This document shows, piece after piece, positions 10,551 to 21,950 of a stretch of DNA of 21,950 nt. The notes beneath the pieces are model-generated. The model was not told the origin of the DNA. It made no database searches and worked only from the letters and a program-made list of their open reading frames with translations. The DNA comes from a virus: IMG/VR virus record IMGVR_UViG_3300012923_000015, positions 1-21,950 of that record; one strand, written 5' to 3'. Each line of letters begins with the position of its first letter. The first letter of the stretch is position 1. The position numbers and the translations under genes are program-made.

Positions 10551-11504
10551 ATGACAATGGTTAGAGGGCAGTTCTCACAATTACAAGCTCCAGGTCTTCA
10601 CGGTGAATTCGTTCACTGGGTTGATACCTTGCAGCGTGAAGAGGAATTCTCTCACATCCTGCATGTGGAGCCTTCCGATAAGGCCTTCGAGGACGAAGTA
10701 GAGTTCTCAGGTCTTCCACCTATGCCGCTGAAGCCTGAGGCTGAGGCGACGATTTATCAAGATGCGGTGCAGGGTGGCACGAAGAGATATATTAACTTTA
10801 CGTACGCCTTAGGCGTTCGCTCGTCGTTCGAACTGTATGAAGACGATCAATATGGCATTATCATGCAAGTTCCGAAAGCAATCGCTCGAAGCGCTCATTT
10901 CACTAAAGAGCAGAACGCCTGGAATCTCTTTAATCTAGGTTTCACGACTCAGATTACTGCCGATGGCGTTTCGATCTTTAACAACCAACATCCGCTTCTC
11001 GGTGGCACAGCCGCAACTTCGTACGGGCCTGGTTTGGGGAATATCATTAGTGCCGCTGGTACTTATCCTAATCGACCTGCGACGGACGTTGACATTTCGT
11101 TCACGGCCATACAGTTGATGGTGAATATGTTCGAGAGGCTCGTGGATAGCCAAGGCTTGCCGATTTCGATCAAGCCTCGGTATCTGATCATCCCACCTGA
11201 ACTGAAGTGGATTGCGCGTGAGGTCCTTGGGTCTCCGCATAAGCCTTACACTGCTGATAATGAGATTAATGCGTTAATCAAAGAAGACTTGCAGTACTTC
11301 GTATCGCATTATCTCACTTCGGCGTCAGCATGGTTCGCCGTCACTGAGAAAGAAGGACACTGGCTCAAGTTCTTGGTTCGTAAGGAGCTTGATGAAGATT
11401 TCTCGGATGACTTTGATACTTTCAGTATCAAGCAACTCTCCAGGATGCGCTTCGCTTTTGGAGCGACAACATGGATGGGAACCTGGGGAAGTAACGGACC
11501 TTAA
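10551..11504 (+). CDS. Major capsid protein (HK97-type fold)
   Basis: The product is 317 aa, ATG start (a second ATG two codons on) with AAGGAGAA about 12 nt upstream. Features include an N-terminal arm GEFVHWVDTLQREEEF, the E-loop region TKRYINFTYALGVRSSFELY, FNNQHPLLGG, and the A-domain DISFTAIQLMVNMFERLVDS followed by LIIPPELKWIAREVLG and YTADNEIN. The pattern of PPEL-x-W-x-ARE-x-LG with a C-terminal WMGTWGSNGP fits Mu gpT-like HK97-fold capsid proteins. The position after scaffold and decoration genes agrees. Part of its A-domain is duplicated in the ORF at 2235-2639. Confidence 0.82.
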   Translation: MTMVRGQFSQLQAPGLHGEFVHWVDTLQREEEFSHILHVEPSDKAFEDEVEFSGLPPMPLKPEAEATIYQDAVQGGTKRYINFTYALGVRSSFELYEDDQYGIIMQVPKAIARSAHFTKEQNAWNLFNLGFTTQITADGVSIFNNQHPLLGGTAATSYGPGLGNIISAAGTYPNRPATDVDISFTAIQLMVNMFERLVDSQGLPISIKPRYLIIPPELKWIAREVLGSPHKPYTADNEINALIKEDLQYFVSHYLTSASAWFAVTEKEGHWLKFLVRKELDEDFSDDFDTFSIKQLSRMRFAFGATTWMGTWGSNGP

Positions 11505-11822: not shown

Positions 11823-12281
11823 ATGCCTCATGATTATGAAAAGATTCTAGAGCTTCTACCTCGCATTACCCCACAATGGCTAGCCGGGTTTTTTGATGGT
11901 GAAGGTCATGTTTCTATAATGAAAGACTCGAAATCTGGTAACCTTTCAATTCAGCTTGGGATTACTCAGAATGACGAATATCTTCTAGCTCTTATAATGC
12001 TGAAATATAGAGCTGGGAATATATACTCTCATTATAATGGGAATAAGAACGGAAGAATGATTGATTGCTTTGTTTATAGAATTAATGGAAAAGAAATAAA
12101 ACAATTATTAGAAGATATTCTTCCATACTCTGTTGTTAAGAGAGAAAGAATTGAAGTTGCTCTCCGATTTCTTGTTTCTCCCTCGGAAGAACTTCGAGAG
12201 AAAATGCTAGAATTAAATTGTCAAGGAAAATCACCGGCGAGAATAGCCGCCTGGAAAATTAAATCCGGAAGGGAGAACTAA
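11823..12281 (+). CDS. Free-standing LAGLIDADG homing endonuclease
   Basis: The product is 152 aa. Residues 20-32 WLAGFFDGEGHVS are a clear LAGLIDADG motif with the acidic catalytic residue at FDGEG. Only one such motif is present, so the enzyme would act as a homodimer cutting a long asymmetric or pseudo-palindromic site. Typical strands follow (LSIQLGITQND, GRMIDCFVYRING) and a KEIKQLLEDILPYSVVKRERI helix region. The gene is AT-richer than its neighbours, with many AGA, ATA and AAA codons, and sits between structural genes, as expected of an invading selfish element. The last TAA is followed after one base by the TTG of the next gene, so it has been inserted without breaking the neighbours. 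The target is probably at the same place in relatives lacking it. Confidence 0.88.
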   Translation: MPHDYEKILELLPRITPQWLAGFFDGEGHVSIMKDSKSGNLSIQLGITQNDEYLLALIMLKYRAGNIYSHYNGNKNGRMIDCFVYRINGKEIKQLLEDILPYSVVKRERIEVALRFLVSPSEELREKMLELNCQGKSPARIAAWKIKSGREN

Positions 12282-14322: not shown

Positions 14323-15606
14323 ATGGATAAGAATATGGGATTCTTGATAGTCTCGGAAGGGGGAGATGGATTGGGGCTGGCGCTCCGGCTTCAGGAAGAA
14401 GGTCATAAAGTAAGTATGGCTATCAAGGATCCCATAGCCGAACAAAGAGGAGAAGGATTAATTGAGAAGAGCGCATCTCCGGAATTCAAGCCTGTTCTTC
14501 TTGCAGACTGTACTGGAAGCGGTGCTCTACTAGATTCTTATCGCGCGAGCGGCGGAGATACTTTTGGAGGTTCTCAGATTGCTGATAGACTAGAAAGCGG
14601 CCGTAAATACGCTAGTCAAATTTTCAAGGAAGCAGAAATTCAAGAGCCTTTCTCGAAGAGATTCACGGACTGGGAATCTGCTTTTGAGTTTGTTCAGTCC
14701 TGGGATGAAGATTCCAAACTCGTTTTTAAGCCCGAGGGTAAACACAGCGGTGTAGTACCTAGCTTCGTACCGCATGATAACGCGGAATTGCTAGAAATGC
14801 TAGAGCACTACAAAGGAATAATCGGCAATGAACCAGAATTTACACTACAAGAATTCATTGACGGCGCATGTATCTCAAGTGAGGTCTGGTGCGCACAAGG
14901 TAAAATGCTCCGTCCAATCAATCACACTCTCGAACGTAAGCAACTCCTCCCTGGGGACATTGGTCCCTCGGGAGGGTGTACAGGTAATGTGGTGTGGTGC
15001 TGTGACGATCGGGAGTGTAGGCTTTGTGAAACACTTGCAAAGCTGTCAGGAATGCTCGAAGAGAATCAATGGACCGGGCCAATAGATATCAACACCGTTG
15101 TCTCCAAGGAAGGAGAAATCTATGCGCTCGAATTTACACCTCGACTGGGCTATGATGCATTCCCGACATTTCTGTATGGGCTTTTTGAATCTGATTTCGG
15201 ACAGTTCGTGTATAACTCTTGCCATGGAGAGTCCAGTGATCTCGAAGTCTCAGATGGCTTCGCTGCGGGTGTTAGGATTTCCGTTCCGCCGTGGCCCAGC
15301 GAGGACTTTCATGCCCGTCCAGGGCTCCCAATTCGTGGACTTCGCAAATCTGACCTCGAAAAATTCTATTCTTACGAGATTAGTTTACAAGAAGATTCGC
15401 TTGTCACCTCCGGAGGGTACGGTATTATAGGTGTAGCCATTGGGCATGGGGGTTCTATAGAAGAAGCCTTTGAAGAGGCTTATAAAATCTGCGATAAGCT
15501 ACGCTTGCCAGATAAACAGTACCGAAATGATCTCGCGGAGGTGTTTGCGAAGGAGTATCGCCTAGTAGAACGCAGTTTATTTAGTGTTCAGAAAGTGAAC
15601 GCTTAA
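14323..15606 (+). CDS. PurD-like ATP-grasp ligase in the tail module
   Basis: The product is 427 aa. The start at ATG 14323 is tentative, with ATG 14335 also possible (GFLIVSEGGDGLGLALRL is the natural N-terminal strand and loop of this family). The ATP-grasp core follows: LVFKPEGKHSG (K136), LQEFIDGACISSEVW (E177, E187), KQLLPGDIGPSGG (206-218) and IYALEFTPRLGYD (E270). This order matches phosphoribosylamine-glycine ligase, but the metal-binding motif normally reads E-x-N-x-R and here reads E-F-T-P-R, so the Asn is replaced. ATP-grasp enzymes join a carboxylate to an amine using ATP. No other purine gene is near, and it lies between an endolysin and tail genes, so a role in modifying a virion protein or cell-wall peptide is as likely as purine synthesis. 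Confidence 0.75.
   Translation: MDKNMGFLIVSEGGDGLGLALRLQEEGHKVSMAIKDPIAEQRGEGLIEKSASPEFKPVLLADCTGSGALLDSYRASGGDTFGGSQIADRLESGRKYASQIFKEAEIQEPFSKRFTDWESAFEFVQSWDEDSKLVFKPEGKHSGVVPSFVPHDNAELLEMLEHYKGIIGNEPEFTLQEFIDGACISSEVWCAQGKMLRPINHTLERKQLLPGDIGPSGGCTGNVVWCCDDRECRLCETLAKLSGMLEENQWTGPIDINTVVSKEGEIYALEFTPRLGYDAFPTFLYGLFESDFGQFVYNSCHGESSDLEVSDGFAAGVRISVPPWPSEDFHARPGLPIRGLRKSDLEKFYSYEISLQEDSLVTSGGYGIIGVAIGHGGSIEEAFEEAYKICDKLRLPDKQYRNDLAEVFAKEYRLVERSLFSVQKVNA
15580..15600 (+). repeat. Dispersed dyad element, copy 3
   Basis: TTTAGTGTTCA-GAAAG-TGAAC lies in the last codons of the ATP-grasp gene and ends 9 nt before the ATG at 15610. The next gene has no clear Shine-Dalgarno, and this copy overlaps where one would be expected. 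It matches copies at 2124, 3476 and 19497. Confidence 0.45.
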
Positions 15607-15609
15607 TAT

Positions 15610-16344
15610 ATGCCATTTCCTCCAGCATTCACAAACGCATGGGACGTAACCTTTCCACCTGATACCCAGTTAGCGAACCTCCTCGGACAGGATCTCCGCA
15701 ACTTCCGCACAGATGTAATGCAACGCCTTTCTCTCCTGAGTGGTACGCTTGCGAATAGACCTACTCCCGAAATAGTAAACGCCACCTGGGGCGGAATCGG
15801 GTACGGGCTTCTTTATTTCTCGACGGATACAAGCCAGATTTTCCAGTGGAATGGGGCGGTATGGAATGATGTAACTCAGAGTCTTATTAAGACGACTTTC
15901 TTCAAAGATAACACAACACATCTTCATACTGGTACAGTGACCGAAGATGTAATTTATACTAATGTTATTAACGGCGGTTTACTGGGTACTAGTAATATCT
16001 TACGAGCTACCCTTGTATTCACTCCGACTGCATTAGTTAGTGGCGGAAGTACTATTCGCTTCAAATACGGAGGAAACACTCCTTTTTTCTATGTTGTAAG
16101 CGTCGCCGGACAAGTTGGTGTTACATATCGAATTGATTTTACCATGGGAAATCAAGGAGTGACTAACTCTCAAAAAGTAACAGCGGCAGTCAACGGTTTC
16201 CCTGGAACCCCTGCTACGCAAGTTACCGCTTCTGGTACGTTAGCAACAGATAGCACGGTTAATCAAAACTTTGTTGTTACTGCTCAGAACGGAGCTGCTG
16301 GAGATTCTCAGAGTTTTCTTGAGTATTTCTTGGAGATTTTGTAA
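15610..16344 (+). CDS. Tail fibre-like virion protein
   Basis: The product is 244 aa. The ATG at 15610 lacks a good ribosome site (only AAAGTGA in the dyad element). The N-terminal 60 residues (DTQLANLLGQDLRNFRTDVM, then RLSLLSGTLANRP) form a helical segment often found at the head of phage fibre proteins. IGYGLLYFSTDTSQIFQWNG then matches the common phage fibre motif GxxYFSTDTxxxYxWNGxxW. The rest is beta-rich, with no enzymatic motif. It probably forms part of the tail or a short fibre. Confidence 0.65.
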   Translation: MPFPPAFTNAWDVTFPPDTQLANLLGQDLRNFRTDVMQRLSLLSGTLANRPTPEIVNATWGGIGYGLLYFSTDTSQIFQWNGAVWNDVTQSLIKTTFFKDNTTHLHTGTVTEDVIYTNVINGGLLGTSNILRATLVFTPTALVSGGSTIRFKYGGNTPFFYVVSVAGQVGVTYRIDFTMGNQGVTNSQKVTAAVNGFPGTPATQVTASGTLATDSTVNQNFVVTAQNGAAGDSQSFLEYFLEIL

Positions 16345-17946
16345 ATGCCCGGAGCTACTGATAGACAGCAAGTAAGATCCGAAGAGTTAATAGAGTTCCC
16401 GATTACCGGACCTTTTGGTGGAGTTCAGTCTGAGCTTCCGCTGGATCAAATCGAAGATTACGGATTTGCCGACTCCACTAACTTCCTTTTTCGAAAAGGC
16501 GTAGCCTATGTTCGCCCGGGGTTTACTGCACTTCCTGCCTTTCCTGCTCCGGCTAATGAGCCTGTTTTAGGGATAGCTGATTTTTTTACTAAAAACGGTG
16601 CGAGAATACAAGTAGTTATGACTCAAACTCGTTTACTTCAGTGGAATCCTGTAGGTCAGTCGTGGACTAATATAACCGGAACAGGTTTTACTGGAACTAC
16701 GACGCAGGTTTTTAGCTGGGATGTTCTTAATAACAAACTACTTTTTTCTCAGGGAGCTGATAAAGTCTGGCTCTGGGATGGTGTAACTGTTGGTTACTCT
16801 CAGAGTTCTGTTAACGCTCCAGCCGCGTTTTATCTCGCAGAGATTGGCTTGCATTTGATGACTCTTAATACTATTGAAGGAGGCATTAACTTTACACAAC
16901 GATACCGTTGGAGCGCCGTGGGAGATCCAACGGACTGGACTTCGTTCTCTGCGGGGGTGAATGATAATCTTAATAATCTCGGTCCGGGACAAGGTCTTCT
17001 TAAACTCGGTCAATACGGATATGGATGGCATAACTGGGGTATTGTTCAGATTCAGCCAACTGGGATAGGGCTAGCGCCTTTTTATTTTACCACAATAGCG
17101 AACTCGAATGTTGGTAACTTCTGCCCTCGTTCTCTTAATCATTTTAACCGAGACGGTGTAGAATGTGCCGCGTATGCTGGTTTTGATAATGTTTACATCT
17201 TTAATCAATCCTCAGTTATCCCAATCGGAGATATGCCTCTTGACGGTAAGCGTCGTATAGGCGCTCGTTCGAGAATCTTTGCTGATTTGATTTCCGGAAA
17301 CCCAGTAAACGCCTTTGGTTACGTGACACAGAGTATCAAGGGTCAGGTTTTTAATGCTTACTGGCTCTTTATACCCGGGGTTCGAGTTTGGGTTTATAAC
17401 TTCGATGAGAATAACTGGACTCCTTTTTCTTACGCTGATGTAAAAACCGTGTCTGGGAGATTCTTTAACCCTAGTGGAACTAGAATCATGGATCTTGTAG
17501 GAAGAATTGCGGATCAAAACTGGACCCCTTCGACTCAAGGAAACAACTCGTTAGATGGCTATGCTATTGGTAATGGCACTGGTCAAGTTGCTTATATTGA
17601 TTTCACAAATTATTCCGAAATAGCCGCGTCGATAACTTCTGGAAAGCATATTTTCAAGGATCGTCGTCATAAGCATACTGTTAAAAAATTTCGACTTACG
17701 GTACAAGATCAAGGGGCAGTAACGTACACCATCGTTATATCAAATGATAAAGGCTACTCCGAGACTCAAGTAGTAACTCTCGGAAGCGGCACTGGGGATT
17801 CGATAAGCACAGTTTTAGGATTCAATGTCACAGGTCTTAGAATTACATGGACCTGTTCTGTGCCTGCGGGGCAACCTGGTGCTGTGATAGAATTCTGCCC
17901 CATGTTTGATATTTCCGGTGAGCAACGCGGGGGAACAATAGATTAA
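16345..17946 (+). CDS. Tail hub/nozzle-type protein (P22 gp10-like candidate)
   Basis: The product is 533 aa, ATG start with GGAG 9-10 nt upstream. It is beta-rich with repeated W-containing blades (LLQWNPVGQSWTNITGTG, VWLWDGVTVG, YRWSAVGDPTDWTSF at 187-201, VWVYNFDENNWTPF). The RYRWSxxGDPTDW motif and the length are typical of the large beta-propeller protein that closes the tube in podovirus tails (P22 gp10 or nozzle-like). It is among the longest genes and lies just before the fibre genes, which fits. No homology search was possible, so the specific name is tentative. Confidence 0.65.
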   Translation: MPGATDRQQVRSEELIEFPITGPFGGVQSELPLDQIEDYGFADSTNFLFRKGVAYVRPGFTALPAFPAPANEPVLGIADFFTKNGARIQVVMTQTRLLQWNPVGQSWTNITGTGFTGTTTQVFSWDVLNNKLLFSQGADKVWLWDGVTVGYSQSSVNAPAAFYLAEIGLHLMTLNTIEGGINFTQRYRWSAVGDPTDWTSFSAGVNDNLNNLGPGQGLLKLGQYGYGWHNWGIVQIQPTGIGLAPFYFTTIANSNVGNFCPRSLNHFNRDGVECAAYAGFDNVYIFNQSSVIPIGDMPLDGKRRIGARSRIFADLISGNPVNAFGYVTQSIKGQVFNAYWLFIPGVRVWVYNFDENNWTPFSYADVKTVSGRFFNPSGTRIMDLVGRIADQNWTPSTQGNNSLDGYAIGNGTGQVAYIDFTNYSEIAASITSGKHIFKDRRHKHTVKKFRLTVQDQGAVTYTIVISNDKGYSETQVVTLGSGTGDSISTVLGFNVTGLRITWTCSVPAGQPGAVIEFCPMFDISGEQRGGTID

Positions 17947-19455
17947 ATGAAGGCAGCGCCAAATCTTAATTTCACCGTTATTAAACCTGAACAAAAGTCT
18001 CTGAGTGATTTTGTTCAGATGTTGAAAACTGTGTACCAGAACTTTATTCAAGTTTTGAATGGAAATATCGGATTCGGAGATGGGACAATTCCTGATAATA
18101 TATCAGGATCTTGGATAAACGTAGTAGCTCCTGTAGCTCCGAATACTGATTTTACTGTGAATCATAATCTCCAGAGACTTCCCGTGGGGTATTGGATTAT
18201 GCAGAAAGACAGGGCATGTGATGTTTATACTGGAAGCGTAGCTGCGACAACGACGCAGTTAACTCTTCGAGCGACCGTGGCATCGGCTGTTCTGCGTTTA
18301 TTCATTATTGGATTTCTTCTTAGTTTTTTCGCATCGCGTAGCGAAGCTCAGGGAGCACAGCATCTAAACTTCGCAGTTGTGGCTGTGAATACGTCTGCTG
18401 GCTCTGGTATGTTGAAGGTAATACCGAGTGCTGTTATCACGGTATGCAACGGATCTACTCTTCCCTCATTAGGTTCTACATGCAGTGGAACAGCGTTGAT
18501 ATTCTCTGATAGTGCTTTAACACTCCCTCTTTCGAATCCGTTCAATGCTGATGTAAGAGGAAACTACGCCTTCTTCACAGCGCCGGGTCAAAGTTATGTG
18601 ATAAGTGTTGGAGGAGTTGGAGTTACAACACTGTCGTATATATGGCTTGCGCCTATCGCCTCCGGGGGAACGTTTTCGAGTTTGATATCGGCGTCAGCGA
18701 GTCCAGCGCAGAGTGGGGTTGTTCGACTGGCGAATAGTGATAATATTGCTTGGAGAAACAACGCTAATAATGGAGATTTAACATTAGGTCTTTCGGGAGC
18801 CGCGTTTGGGAATCGACCTGCTGATATGTTTGTTTTTAATCCAGGCTCAACGGGTTTACTCGCCGCGTTTCTTTCATCTGCGAGTACAAGTATACCTGCC
18901 GTTGGTGGCTTTGCTCGAATGGCATCTGGAGATTCCATCAGTTGGCGTAACAACGCTAACAACGCGGATGTATCATTTAGCAAAACCGCGAACGATCTCC
19001 CGGTATTTAGCAGTGGTGGCCCTTCTCTTTTACTAAACTCGCAAGTAAACGCCGCTGCGATAACCGGAAACGGTGCACCGCAAACTGTTTATCTTTACCA
19101 GATTCCCGCTAACACTGTAGCAAATCTCAAAGGATTTCGTCTTACATTTGGTCTTAATCATTCTTTAGGGGCTGGAAACGTAACTTATATACTGTCATTG
19201 CTTGGTGTAACGATATTCAACGTAACAAGTGCGGCAGGAGGTTCATCAGCAGTGCAGGTTACGTTCCTGAATACCGGAGCAACTACAGGAACCGCAACGA
19301 TATTTGCAAGTGGTGGTGGACTTGCTGCACTTCAGGGAAGTGCTACGTATACAACTTTATCCTGGGCTTCTTTACAAAATTTATTATTAACATTCAATGC
19401 AGCAAATACAGAACAAGTTACCCCAATTCAATGGGCGGTGGAGTTGATTCAGTGA
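17947..19455 (+). CDS. Fibre protein with an internal Sec-like signal segment
   Basis: The product is 502 aa, ATG start with GGGGGA 13 nt upstream. Residues 1-117 match a small phage tail-fibre domain (NHNLQRLPVGYWIMQKDRAC, ATTTQLTLRA). Residues 116-135 then form a perfect signal-peptide core, RLFIIGFLLSFFASRSEAQ, followed by a beta-rich second half (VIPSAVITVCNGSTLPSLG, and two copies of xRxAxxDxIxWRNNANN near 256 and 320). The join looks like two genes fused, the second having begun with a secreted N-terminus. GTG at 18277 (residue 111) could start the second part alone, giving MASAVLRLFIIGFLL, though no ribosome site is evident. The final TGA overlaps the GTG of the next gene. Confidence 0.65.
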   Translation: MKAAPNLNFTVIKPEQKSLSDFVQMLKTVYQNFIQVLNGNIGFGDGTIPDNISGSWINVVAPVAPNTDFTVNHNLQRLPVGYWIMQKDRACDVYTGSVAATTTQLTLRATVASAVLRLFIIGFLLSFFASRSEAQGAQHLNFAVVAVNTSAGSGMLKVIPSAVITVCNGSTLPSLGSTCSGTALIFSDSALTLPLSNPFNADVRGNYAFFTAPGQSYVISVGGVGVTTLSYIWLAPIASGGTFSSLISASASPAQSGVVRLANSDNIAWRNNANNGDLTLGLSGAAFGNRPADMFVFNPGSTGLLAAFLSSASTSIPAVGGFARMASGDSISWRNNANNADVSFSKTANDLPVFSSGGPSLLLNSQVNAAAITGNGAPQTVYLYQIPANTVANLKGFRLTFGLNHSLGAGNVTYILSLLGVTIFNVTSAAGGSSAVQVTFLNTGATTGTATIFASGGGLAALQGSATYTTLSWASLQNLLLTFNAANTEQVTPIQWAVELIQ

Positions 19456-21728
19456 AAAAACTACTTCTAGTTATATTTTTATTATTACTGTTTACATTTA
19501 GTGTTCACGCTCAGAACACTAACGTAACTGCGACTATTACTGATGCTGGGGGACAGACGTGGAATAATGGTACATACACGTTTAATTTCATTCCGAAGCC
19601 TCAGTTTAACGGCTCTTATAGACTAAGCGGGGCGCCGTATACATCGGTCCCTGTAACAGGTTCTCTTAGCTCCGTCGGGGCTTTTACAAGCGTACCTGTT
19701 CCGGATAATAATTTAATAACCCCGACAGGAACTCAGTGGACTGTTACGGTGTGTGCTCAGACTCAGTTTATTTGCTTTACATCAGGGTTTCTTACTATAA
19801 CCGGCGCTTCTCAGACTATTACTAGTAGTGTTATCCCTCCTGCGATTTCTACTACCTGCGGTCCTGGAGCAGTAGCGTATGCCGATTCGGAAGTAAATTG
19901 TAGTATTGGGGGGCAGTATTATAATTTAACGAGTTTAGGGAGTAGACAGTGTACAGCCGTAACAGGAAATGCTTGTACTACTTGGACTTCAGCAGGCGGG
20001 GGCATCACGGTAGCTAGCTTGCCTGGGGGAAATCAAATCTATGCTGCTACTTCTTGTCCTGCATCTACGCCACAATGCTTCCAGGTATTCGACGATGTGC
20101 AAATGTCGGAAAATGCCACATGGACGAACGCCTCTACCACTGTCACAACCATTGCGAATGACCCAGCGTTCGTAGCCGGAGATGTGGGCAAGATTGAGTT
20201 CGGGGCAGGGAATTGTCCCGGCACGAGCGTGAACTGTACTTATATGGTTCCGCAGGGAACAATTCTTACCGTTGTCAGTGCCCACAACGTCACTGTATCA
20301 GTGGCCGCTACCGCTAGCAGTCCCGCAACGGTTAATATCAACAATTTCTTCTGGGGACATGATGACGGGGCGCAGTTGGTGGCAGCATTCGCCGCGCTAT
20401 TTCCTTATACCTTCGGAAGCACGCAGCTTTTAACGCAGCCACAGAAAACACTAAGGCTGCCATGCGGGATGATGTTCACAAGCCTTCCGCCATTTATCGT
20501 GGGCGCCGCTGGTGGAACAAATCCAGCGAACAATGGCGGCGGCTTGGTTGGTTGCGGTGGCCCGTCTGTGACCATAGTCATTCCATTACCGAAAATGAAC
20601 TGCAACGTATCCACTTTTATAGGTTGCATGTTTTCAAACGGCATGATCCCGATTGCCAATCCCGGCAATATACTAGTCGGTTGGCACGTGCGCGATATCA
20701 CCTTTTGGGGTGGCGGAACAGATGTTAAGGATGCCGCAGCGACGTACTCGAATCCAGCCAACGCTATCGTAATCAACACGTTCGACGAACTCGATAACGT
20801 CTGGGTAATTGGCTGGGTTTGGAATTCGAGCAACACTGTCGGGATTTTTAACAACGGCGGCGTGATGACCAATTCTGGCTCTTTTGGAGGCGGGGTGACT
20901 AATTGTAAGTTTTCCGGTTCGGTGGCTGTGGGTGCGGTCATATATGGCGGTGGTTGCGGGAATAGTCCTGGTCATATTGGGTTTGTAGTATCCAATACCT
21001 CGGTAGGAGCAATGGTTAGTAGTTACGGAGTATCCATAACTAATTCAGCGAGCTTAACTGCCGGTATATGGAATGATTATGGAAGCGCTATAATCTCTTC
21101 CACATTTATTTCAGGCGGGTTTGGCTACCTGCACGGCACACTAACCGGACAGAACGGAGGAGGGAATAGTGCATTGACGGTTTCGGGCGGTGTCGTCCAT
21201 CTTGCTGCGGCTCGAATTGATGCTACGTCAGGAGCGCCAATCAACATAAGCGCTGGAACAATCTATGATGACTGCGGGAACATCTTTGCGGATACCCCAA
21301 CCGCTCTCGTGATCTCCGGTGGCAGTATAATCGGTACCTGCTCACTCTCGCAGCAGGCTACAAATACCGCTGTCGCTAGTCGAAACACCAGCCTTGGCAC
21401 CACGGCACTTCTGCCCGCTGTTCGCTGGCCAGGGCCGAATATCACGATTGAACTTTACGCCTACGATTCCGCCGCTGGCGCAAGCTGCGCAGGTAACACG
21501 ACTGTCACCTGGACGATCTCCTACACAGACCCAACCGGAACAGCTCAAACCAGCACGGCGGTTGAGACCATTGCTACGAACGGCGGTGCGACTGGTGCCG
21601 ACTCCCTGAGAGTCACGTTTCCGATCAGCGTGAATCCCAATACGGCGATCAACTACTCCACCGTCTATGCCATTGGCGGCAGCTGTAGTCCCGGACCCAG
21701 CTACGCCGCAAATTTGAAGGTGATCTAA
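19452..21728 (+). CDS. Tailspike/fibre with Sec signal peptide and beta-helix region
   Basis: The product is 758 aa from GTG 19452, which overlaps the previous TGA and has GGTGGAG about 9-10 nt upstream. Residues 1-20 (MKKLLLVIFLLLLFTFSVHA) are a clear Sec signal peptide, with cleavage expected before Q21. Residues 22-140 form a beta-sandwich (VTATITDAGGQTWNNGTYTF). Around 210-350 the pattern TWTNASTTVTTIANDPAFVA, DVGKIEFGAG, HDDGAQLVAAFAAL and TLRLPCGMMF is typical of pectate-lyase-like right-handed beta-helix spikes. A C-terminal beta-sandwich ends SYAANLKVI. It would bind or cut surface polysaccharide; the catalytic residues are not identified. Composition shifts near 20000 and again near 21170 suggest domain exchange. 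A virion protein with a Sec signal is unusual. Confidence 0.75.
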   Translation: MKKLLLVIFLLLLFTFSVHAQNTNVTATITDAGGQTWNNGTYTFNFIPKPQFNGSYRLSGAPYTSVPVTGSLSSVGAFTSVPVPDNNLITPTGTQWTVTVCAQTQFICFTSGFLTITGASQTITSSVIPPAISTTCGPGAVAYADSEVNCSIGGQYYNLTSLGSRQCTAVTGNACTTWTSAGGGITVASLPGGNQIYAATSCPASTPQCFQVFDDVQMSENATWTNASTTVTTIANDPAFVAGDVGKIEFGAGNCPGTSVNCTYMVPQGTILTVVSAHNVTVSVAATASSPATVNINNFFWGHDDGAQLVAAFAALFPYTFGSTQLLTQPQKTLRLPCGMMFTSLPPFIVGAAGGTNPANNGGGLVGCGGPSVTIVIPLPKMNCNVSTFIGCMFSNGMIPIANPGNILVGWHVRDITFWGGGTDVKDAAATYSNPANAIVINTFDELDNVWVIGWVWNSSNTVGIFNNGGVMTNSGSFGGGVTNCKFSGSVAVGAVIYGGGCGNSPGHIGFVVSNTSVGAMVSSYGVSITNSASLTAGIWNDYGSAIISSTFISGGFGYLHGTLTGQNGGGNSALTVSGGVVHLAAARIDATSGAPINISAGTIYDDCGNIFADTPTALVISGGSIIGTCSLSQQATNTAVASRNTSLGTTALLPAVRWPGPNITIELYAYDSAAGASCAGNTTVTWTISYTDPTGTAQTSTAVETIATNGGATGADSLRVTFPISVNPNTAINYSTVYAIGGSCSPGPSYAANLKVI
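19497..19518 (+). repeat. Dispersed dyad element, copy 4
   Basis: TTTAGTGTTCA-CGCTC-AGAACA lies inside the signal-peptide coding part of the fibre gene at 19452 (codons for FSVHAQN). The palindrome here runs AGTGTTC-N7-GAACACT. It is the least perfect right arm of the four copies (AGAAC in place of TGAAC). Confidence 0.35.
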
Positions 21729-21950
21729 ATGTTAAGACGCCTTCTTTTTGCTCTGTTCTTGACTCCATTCATCGTCCTGGCGCAAATCCCCCTAAGACCA
21801 AGAGTGACGCCAGCAGCTCCTAAATCGTCTGTTCCGTCGAGTGCGTTCCGTGGGGATGTGATCGTGCCTATCACGAAAGCTGAACGTGCGCAGATGGCGC
21901 GGACACATAAGATTATTTGGAAACACATCTATCTCAGACTCCCAATAAAC
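21729..21950 (+). CDS. Secreted or virion protein, partial at right edge
   Basis: The ATG at 21729 follows the preceding stop directly, with AAGGTGA about 6 nt upstream; the frame is open for 74 codons to the window end. Residues 1-18 (MLRRLLFALFLTPFIVLA) are a Sec signal peptide ending in AQ, like the other fibre genes. The mature part starts proline-rich (QIPLRPRVTPAAPKSSVPSS) and then becomes basic (TKAERAQMARTHKIIWKHIY). The fold is not visible in this fragment. It completes a run of three fibre-region genes with signal-peptide-like segments. Confidence 0.65.
   Translation, partial: MLRRLLFALFLTPFIVLAQIPLRPRVTPAAPKSSVPSSAFRGDVIVPITKAERAQMARTHKIIWKHIYLRLPIN

Follow-up and report, generated by a model that had tools for sequence, protein, structure and literature searches.

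A fibre-type protein family of uncultured tailed phages with predicted Sec signal peptides and a conserved glutamine after the putative cleavage site

Tail fibres set the host range of phages and are normally taken to assemble in the cytoplasm. A 21,950-base IMG/VR virus record from an uncultured tailed virus (analysed in full and referred to here as the window) ends in a series of genes that appear to carry export signals and two of which are of fibre type, which raises the question of whether some phage fibre-type proteins are substrates of the host Sec system and, if so, what becomes of them. The upstream genes of the window encode a large terminase subunit (phrog_38), a protein with a portal match and a Mu gpT-like major capsid protein. 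The three genes of interest, named here by their first positions (17947, 19452 and 21729), sit immediately 3' of the gene for a phrog_3287 virion protein and adjoin or overlap one another, so that 17947 and 19452 lie in the virion module, where tail fibre and tailspike genes are located. The features of this region are as follows.

15610..16344, + strand: slot A, non-exported fibre-type protein of 244 aa with no signal and no cysteine (from tip comparison)
16345..17946, + strand: virion structural protein, phrog_3287 (PHROG match, E 4.3e-19)
17947..18303, + strand: F1N, conserved N-terminal domain of the first gene, about 119 aa, ahead of the signal (from alignments of relatives)
18292..18348, + strand: predicted internal Sec-type signal, LRLFIIGFLLSFFASRSEA region, with hydrophobic core and small-x-small site (from sequence and alignments)
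18349..19455, + strand: predicted exported part of the 17947 protein, from Gln135, with Cys167/Cys179 (from alignments and cysteine map)
19437..19443, + strand: Shine-Dalgarno-like GGTGGAG serving the GTG at 19452 (from the sequence directly)
19452..19511, + strand: predicted N-terminal Sec signal peptide MKKLLLVIFLLLLFTFSVHA (from sequence, relatives and a model helix at residues 2-15)
19512..19991, + strand: predicted mature N-terminal beta-sandwich domain, residues 21-180, from Gln21 (from alignment, model and fold search)
19992..21728, + strand: remainder of the second fibre-type protein (from cysteine map)
21729..21782, + strand: predicted signal peptide MLRRLLFALFLTPFIVLA of the truncated third gene (from sequence)
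21783..21950, + strand: beginning of the predicted mature third protein, ended by the contig edge (from sequence)

The 19452 gene encodes a 758-residue protein that opens with a textbook Sec/signal-peptidase-I signal ahead of Gln21, the product beginning MKKLLLVIFLLLLFTFSVHA and continuing with QNTN. Its GTG start overlaps the stop codon of the previous gene (GTGA) and has GGTGGAG 8 nt upstream; a program-made list of open reading frames puts the start at the ATG at 19431, but the relatives begin instead at the position of the GTG. Downstream alternative starts, which would yield a second, cytoplasmic form of the 19452-family proteins, are not conserved as judged by eye. In the 17947 protein the corresponding hydrophobic segment is internal (VLRLFIIGFLLSFFASRSEA) and ends in SEA directly before a glutamine, residue 135. 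The 21729 gene starts with MLRRLLFALFLTPFIVLA, again followed by glutamine, and reaches the contig edge after 74 codons. The original prediction had called all three genes signal-bearing fibres. Comparison with relatives confirms the signal at the start of 19452 and the similar segment inside the preceding gene; for 21729 the signal part of the claim holds, but the gene cannot be called a fibre gene because its product is cut at 74 aa by the contig end and our searches found no relative of it.

Viral contigs were scanned with three queries, of which the 19452 protein recovered 20 loci, the 17947 protein 19 and an alignment of 16 rows 59; a six-frame profile search of those loci yielded 66 distinct IMG/VR open reading frames with the 19452 N-domain. 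For signal-peptide prediction, which had been proposed as a check, we used a home-made and crude rule that asks for a positive n-region, a hydrophobic core free of charges and a small residue at both -3 and -1. This rule is passed by 63 of the 66 homologues; of the three misses, those at L041 and L051 have an internal signal and L045:309-1163 is without any. Other open reading frames of these loci pass in 59 of 500 cases, many of which are cassette neighbours. Lambda Lom passes as well, but none of the eight fibres and tailspikes taken from lambda, T7, SP6 and P22 does. The predicted signals thus occur in the 19452 family far above chance.

The alignment of the 66 sequences locates a putative cleavage site. 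The -1 column contains A in 51 sequences, G in 7, S in 3 and C in 3 (small in 64/66), and the -3 column A in 23, V in 12, S in 12, T in 6, C in 5, L in 4 and G in 2 (64/66), with position -2 free to take 16 residue types. Glutamine occupies +1 in 63/66 and is the second most conserved column, while the letters of the signal themselves vary; in L033, which is displaced by one residue in the alignment, the glutamine is present as well, leaving L045:309-1163 and L074:5977-8592 as true exceptions. In a separate alignment of 35 diverse sequences the glutamine is invariant (35/35). The 'AQ style' that the original prediction had seen in the three genes of the window is therefore a family-wide feature and no coincidence. 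Sec and signal peptidase I substrates are marked by this pattern: a positively charged n-region and a hydrophobic core close to the N-terminus, then a site with small residues at -1 and -3 and a free -2 position. A second, still crude site caller finds a signal in 52 of the 66 members but misplaces sites, so that glutamine falls at +1 in only 29 of the 52. As a separate observation, the stretch L045:396-12537 holds seven consecutive genes, six of them with signal-like N-termini; the sole exception is the first, which encodes a fibre N-domain without signal and without cysteines.

Cysteine content offers an independent test of export, as exported proteins of Gram-negative bacteria favour even cysteine numbers according to the passages cited (PMC7678975). 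Among 46 complete 19452-family (F2) proteins of less than 50% identity, the count is even in 42, or in 41 of 45 once the signal-less member is left aside. The controls were complete proteins of these loci that lack a signal and reach at least 150 aa; they were clustered in the same way, and 17947-family members were removed. Of those with at least two cysteines, 62 of 113 have an even number (Fisher p 5e-6 against the family), as do 21 of 46 when the length is at least 300 aa (Fisher p 2e-6). The bias expected of folding in an oxidising compartment is hence present in the 19452 family (41/45 versus 62/113), and other signal-bearing proteins from the same loci are even in 16/20 cases. Cysteine density is 1.94 per 100 aa in the family versus 1.05 in the controls, and the 19452 protein of the window alone encodes 20 cysteines, most of them as pairs 7 to 30 residues apart. 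Conversely, the single signal-less family member, L045:309-1163, has no cysteine after its start codon. For the 17947 family, of which 14 complete members were available that are related to each other, the part after the glutamine is even in 11/14 (the odd ones being L028, L031 and L051) and the whole protein in 4/14; of the three cysteines in the window's 17947 protein, only Cys91 precedes the signal. The site pattern, the +1 glutamine, the even-cysteine bias and the joint loss of signal and cysteines all point the same way, and textbook fibres fail the signal rule; an oxidising compartment is therefore very probably where the family proteins fold.

The internal position of the signal in the 17947 type calls for a separate explanation. 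Fifteen sequences of this type share a near-invariant first stretch of about 119 residues, followed by a variable hydrophobic stretch and then by the invariant Gln135 (15/15). An internal start does not account for the signal, since L029-L031 offer no ATG, GTG, TTG or CTG just before or within the hydrophobic stretch (L031 has one start codon well upstream of it, and L028 one within it). L012, L013 and L019 encode a distant form of the first domain by itself, in a gene that stops at the point at which the hydrophobic stretch would begin, and in L032, L033, L041 and L051 a 19452-type N-domain is joined without interruption to the first domain and its signal. The stand-alone conserved domain, searched as a first-stage fragment, matches no PHROG and has no convincing match in INPHARED. 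Internal signals without a start codon, the stand-alone first domain and the fusions to the 19452-type N-domain suggest that signal peptidase would split one 17947-type translation product in two, and we infer a topology in which the first domain is cytoplasmic and the rest exported.

Are these proteins fibres? Neither the 19452 nor the 17947 protein of the window matches a Pfam or PHROG family, and among 50 full-length relatives scanned, PHROG names of tail-fibre, tail-protein or lyase type occur in only four. The predicted exported proteins L060:4010-5641 and L064:4543-5973 contain tail-protein and tail-fibre PHROG stretches in their C-terminal or central parts, and behind the signal L077 has a tail-fibre stretch and L072 pectin lyase stretches. 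Pfam assigns K1-lyase_C, Pect-lyase_RHGA_epim, GDSL lipase, Laminin_G_3 and head fibre to one member each of the 50. Sequence profile searches of the PDB gave E values of at least 0.27 or nothing, NCBIfam nothing relevant, and hhalign detected no sequence link of the N-domain to lambda orf-401 that would indicate kinship with Stf.

The AlphaFold model of the 19452 protein is reliable for residues 1-180 only, where it contains a helix at residues 2-15 and a beta-sandwich from residue 22. The modelled N-domain resembles residues 1-103 of the cyanophage A-1(L) tail fibre (Z 8.7) and the A-1(L) neck fibre (Z 8.2), followed by the Ur-lambda tail tip (residues 1-90, Z 7.8), the XM1 neck (Z 7.2) and the Bxb1 tail tip (Z 6.9). 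The fold is a common one, and human carboxypeptidase regulatory domains as well as the SusC N-terminal extension (NTE) score alike. The same list includes 9yh9, a crystal structure of soil-metagenome origin that is named as a phage catechol 1,2-dioxygenase (Z 7.3), and such names may partly reflect the shared beta-sandwich fold. Beta-helix matches of the 19452 model were set aside as they fall in its low-confidence part, and the model of the 17947 protein was unusable (pLDDT 36.6). Of four rows with E<=0.001 in a search of viral structures, three were whole-length matches with rmsd over 20 and the fourth aligned locally with a protein of Rhodobacter phage RcapNL; none was counted as evidence.

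Taken at the level of sequence, the family can be read as fibre-type proteins that are Sec substrates, a variant on the known phage fibres. Like lambda J, orf-401 and orf-314, T7 gp17, SP6 gp38, gp49 and gp50, and P22 gp9, its members are large and modular with swappable C-terminal tips, are encoded after the head-tail genes and have an N-domain whose modelled fold, a common one, resembles the N-terminal domains of virion fibres. Unlike in those eight fibres and tailspikes, none of which passes the signal rule, here signal, +1 glutamine and paired cysteines are the rule.

The swapping of tips also connects the family to a fibre-type protein without a signal. The C-terminal tip type of the slot-A protein trades places with the tip of the exported protein in other phages: the last ~140 residues of the window's 17947 protein, the tip of its predicted exported part, have 41-43% identity to the tips of the non-exported 15610-type (slot-A) proteins of L005 and L033, and the 17947-type tip of L005 has 44.5% identity to the 15610-type tip of L010. 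Within one and the same contig, exported and non-exported tips match in none of the 14 contigs in which both tips were kept after duplicate removal, in some of which the contig ends within the exported protein. The proteins with signals thus carry fibre-type tips that are never copies of the other tip of their own phage. In nine listed pairings of exported and non-exported tips, the exported copy is richer in cysteine in five and neither has any in four; the 17947 tip of the window shows no gain over its non-exported relatives (0 and 0).

The reading we favour is that the 17947 and 19452 genes represent large fibre-type adhesion or depolymerase families of uncultured tailed phages, the products of which would be exported by the host Sec system during infection. 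Signal peptidase I would cut directly before the glutamine, the new N-terminal glutamine would probably cyclise to pyroglutamate, and the exported proteins, once in the periplasm, would form many disulphide bonds as they fold; for the 17947 type, the ~119-residue domain would stay in the cytoplasm as signal peptidase frees the exported fibre part. Lysis would release the exported fibres, and we lean slightly towards their then attaching to virions as real fibres, although no route by which an exported fibre could be added to a tailed virion is known to us. The steps from Sec export through cleavage before glutamine to disulphide folding in the periplasm appear highly probable on the evidence of signals and cysteines. 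For the whole chain, continued through release at lysis to use on the virion as real fibres, we regard the chances as evenly balanced. The main rival to virion attachment is that the proteins are exported and cleaved and never join virions, acting instead as free depolymerases or adhesins on polysaccharide of the host or its neighbours or in the lysate, which we hold to be somewhat doubtful though well worth considering. The Pect-lyase_RHGA_epim, K1-lyase_C and GDSL lipase domains, each in one of the 50 members, the pectin lyase PHROG of L072 and the runs of two to six consecutive signal-bearing genes (for example in L045, L035, L073 and L055) would suit such enzymes; they sit less well with tail-fibre PHROG domains behind a signal, with tips exchanged with the non-exported slot-A protein and with genes placed directly after virion genes. 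A more elaborate version of the favoured reading, rather unlikely as a whole and offered tentatively, is an assembly in two compartments: capsid and tail would be cytoplasmic, the fibres would be exported, trimmed, capped by pyroglutamate and disulphide-bonded, and the parts would meet at lysis, signal peptidase acting on the 17947 protein as a polyprotein protease that yields a cytoplasmic virion domain and an exported fibre.

The remaining explanations fare worse. According to the original prediction the fibres might also be secreted, possibly for receptor blocking. Secretion itself agrees with the signals and cysteines, but an exported tip that masks the phage's own receptor on the cell or on debris, causing superinfection exclusion, seems quite improbable: although exported and non-exported fibre-type proteins share kinds of tips, blocking of the own receptor would demand the same tip within one phage and is disfavoured by the 0/14 contigs with a match, and large multi-domain proteins in several copies would be costly blockers. 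We give very little credence to the view that the hydrophobic stretch is an uncleaved membrane or virion anchor, or a trimerisation stretch of a fibre assembled in the cytoplasm. It draws on the internal position of the stretch after a conserved domain in 17947 and on the relatives without a start codon before it, but has to contend with the conserved small-x-small and glutamine pattern with its free middle position, with the even-cysteine bias and with the concerted loss of signal and cysteines in L045:309-1163. Equally remote is the capture of whole extracellular host genes together with their signals, the products not being fibres. The carboxypeptidase-regulatory and SusC N-terminal-extension type of the N-domain fold and weak, below-cut-off CarboxypepD_reg matches in L085 (2.4e-5) and L086 (8e-5) would fit an origin of this kind; tail-fibre domains in the C-terminal parts and tips exchanged with phage proteins speak against it. 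The 175 and 19 pattern matches from two scans of a genome collection included no confirmed relative, which is weak negative evidence because few patterns were used. The suggestion of host capture in the original prediction is therefore not supported at the sensitivity reached.

If a widespread family of exported, disulphide-paired fibre-type proteins exists, either virion assembly is completed outside the cytoplasm in some tailed phages or large free adhesins or depolymerases are released alongside virions. Among the titles and abstracts listed in searches of open-licence papers on phage fibres with signals or export, none describes Sec-exported tail fibres. Other phage proteins do use host export, as the cited passages describe for SAR endolysins, spanins and T4 RI (PMC10194101, PMC12989515, PMC8385771), but these are lysis proteins without fibre domains. 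Lambda Lom is likewise a signal-bearing gene among tail-fibre genes and differs in encoding a small outer-membrane barrel and no fibre, as far as the cited passages of PMC12309495 go. The closest parallel comes from Porphyromonas gingivalis phages, in which five signal-peptide genes of unknown function with glutamine at +1 are described and read as use of host secretion in the passages cited (PMC10367356). The present case shares the phage-encoded signal and +1 glutamine with them and goes beyond them in comprising a fibre-type family on dozens of contigs, with cysteine evidence and internal-signal fusions.

The +1 glutamine may also help to trace the hosts. Glutamine directly after the signal-peptidase-I site, the Q-rule, is typical of Bacteroidetes, with scattered high values elsewhere, in the passages cited from PMC5837995, and the Bacteroidetes rule is also treated in PMC10653852. 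The phage family resembles these substrates in the position of the glutamine. Acidobacteria were considered as hosts as well: with the second crude caller, signal proteins predicted on a 350-kb Granulicella plasmid have glutamine at +1 in 11 of 32 cases and those from 200 kb of E. coli in 5 of 23, a difference with Fisher p 0.38. The signal set is even in cysteine in 10/28 cases for Granulicella (no bias) and in 11/15 for E. coli (bias), so that the cysteine data, if anything, speak against Granulicella as a model of the host. INPHARED contains no match for the 17947, 19452 and 16345 proteins of the window or for three other family members, and the terminase of the window matches only distant phages, at most at 31% identity. 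Prophage copies may be rare, for just 2 of the 35 contigs that were tested for an integrase have one.

Three further genes of the window deserve mention. The 134-aa gene at 2235-2639 starts with MLNRRGFLKRLAAVPLIPLVAK, a sequence of twin-arginine look, after which it repeats part of the major capsid protein encoded at 10551 (44% over 77 aa, E 4e-16); the gene is 99-100% conserved in three other contigs. At 11823-12281, a 152-aa open reading frame with a LAGLIDADG-like look separates two genes, of 85 aa and 223 aa, that are adjacent in L006 (545-802 and 846-1517), and it is probably a mobile insertion. Finally, an ATP-grasp protein with GARS (PurD-like) domains is encoded at 14323-15606, inside the virion gene module.
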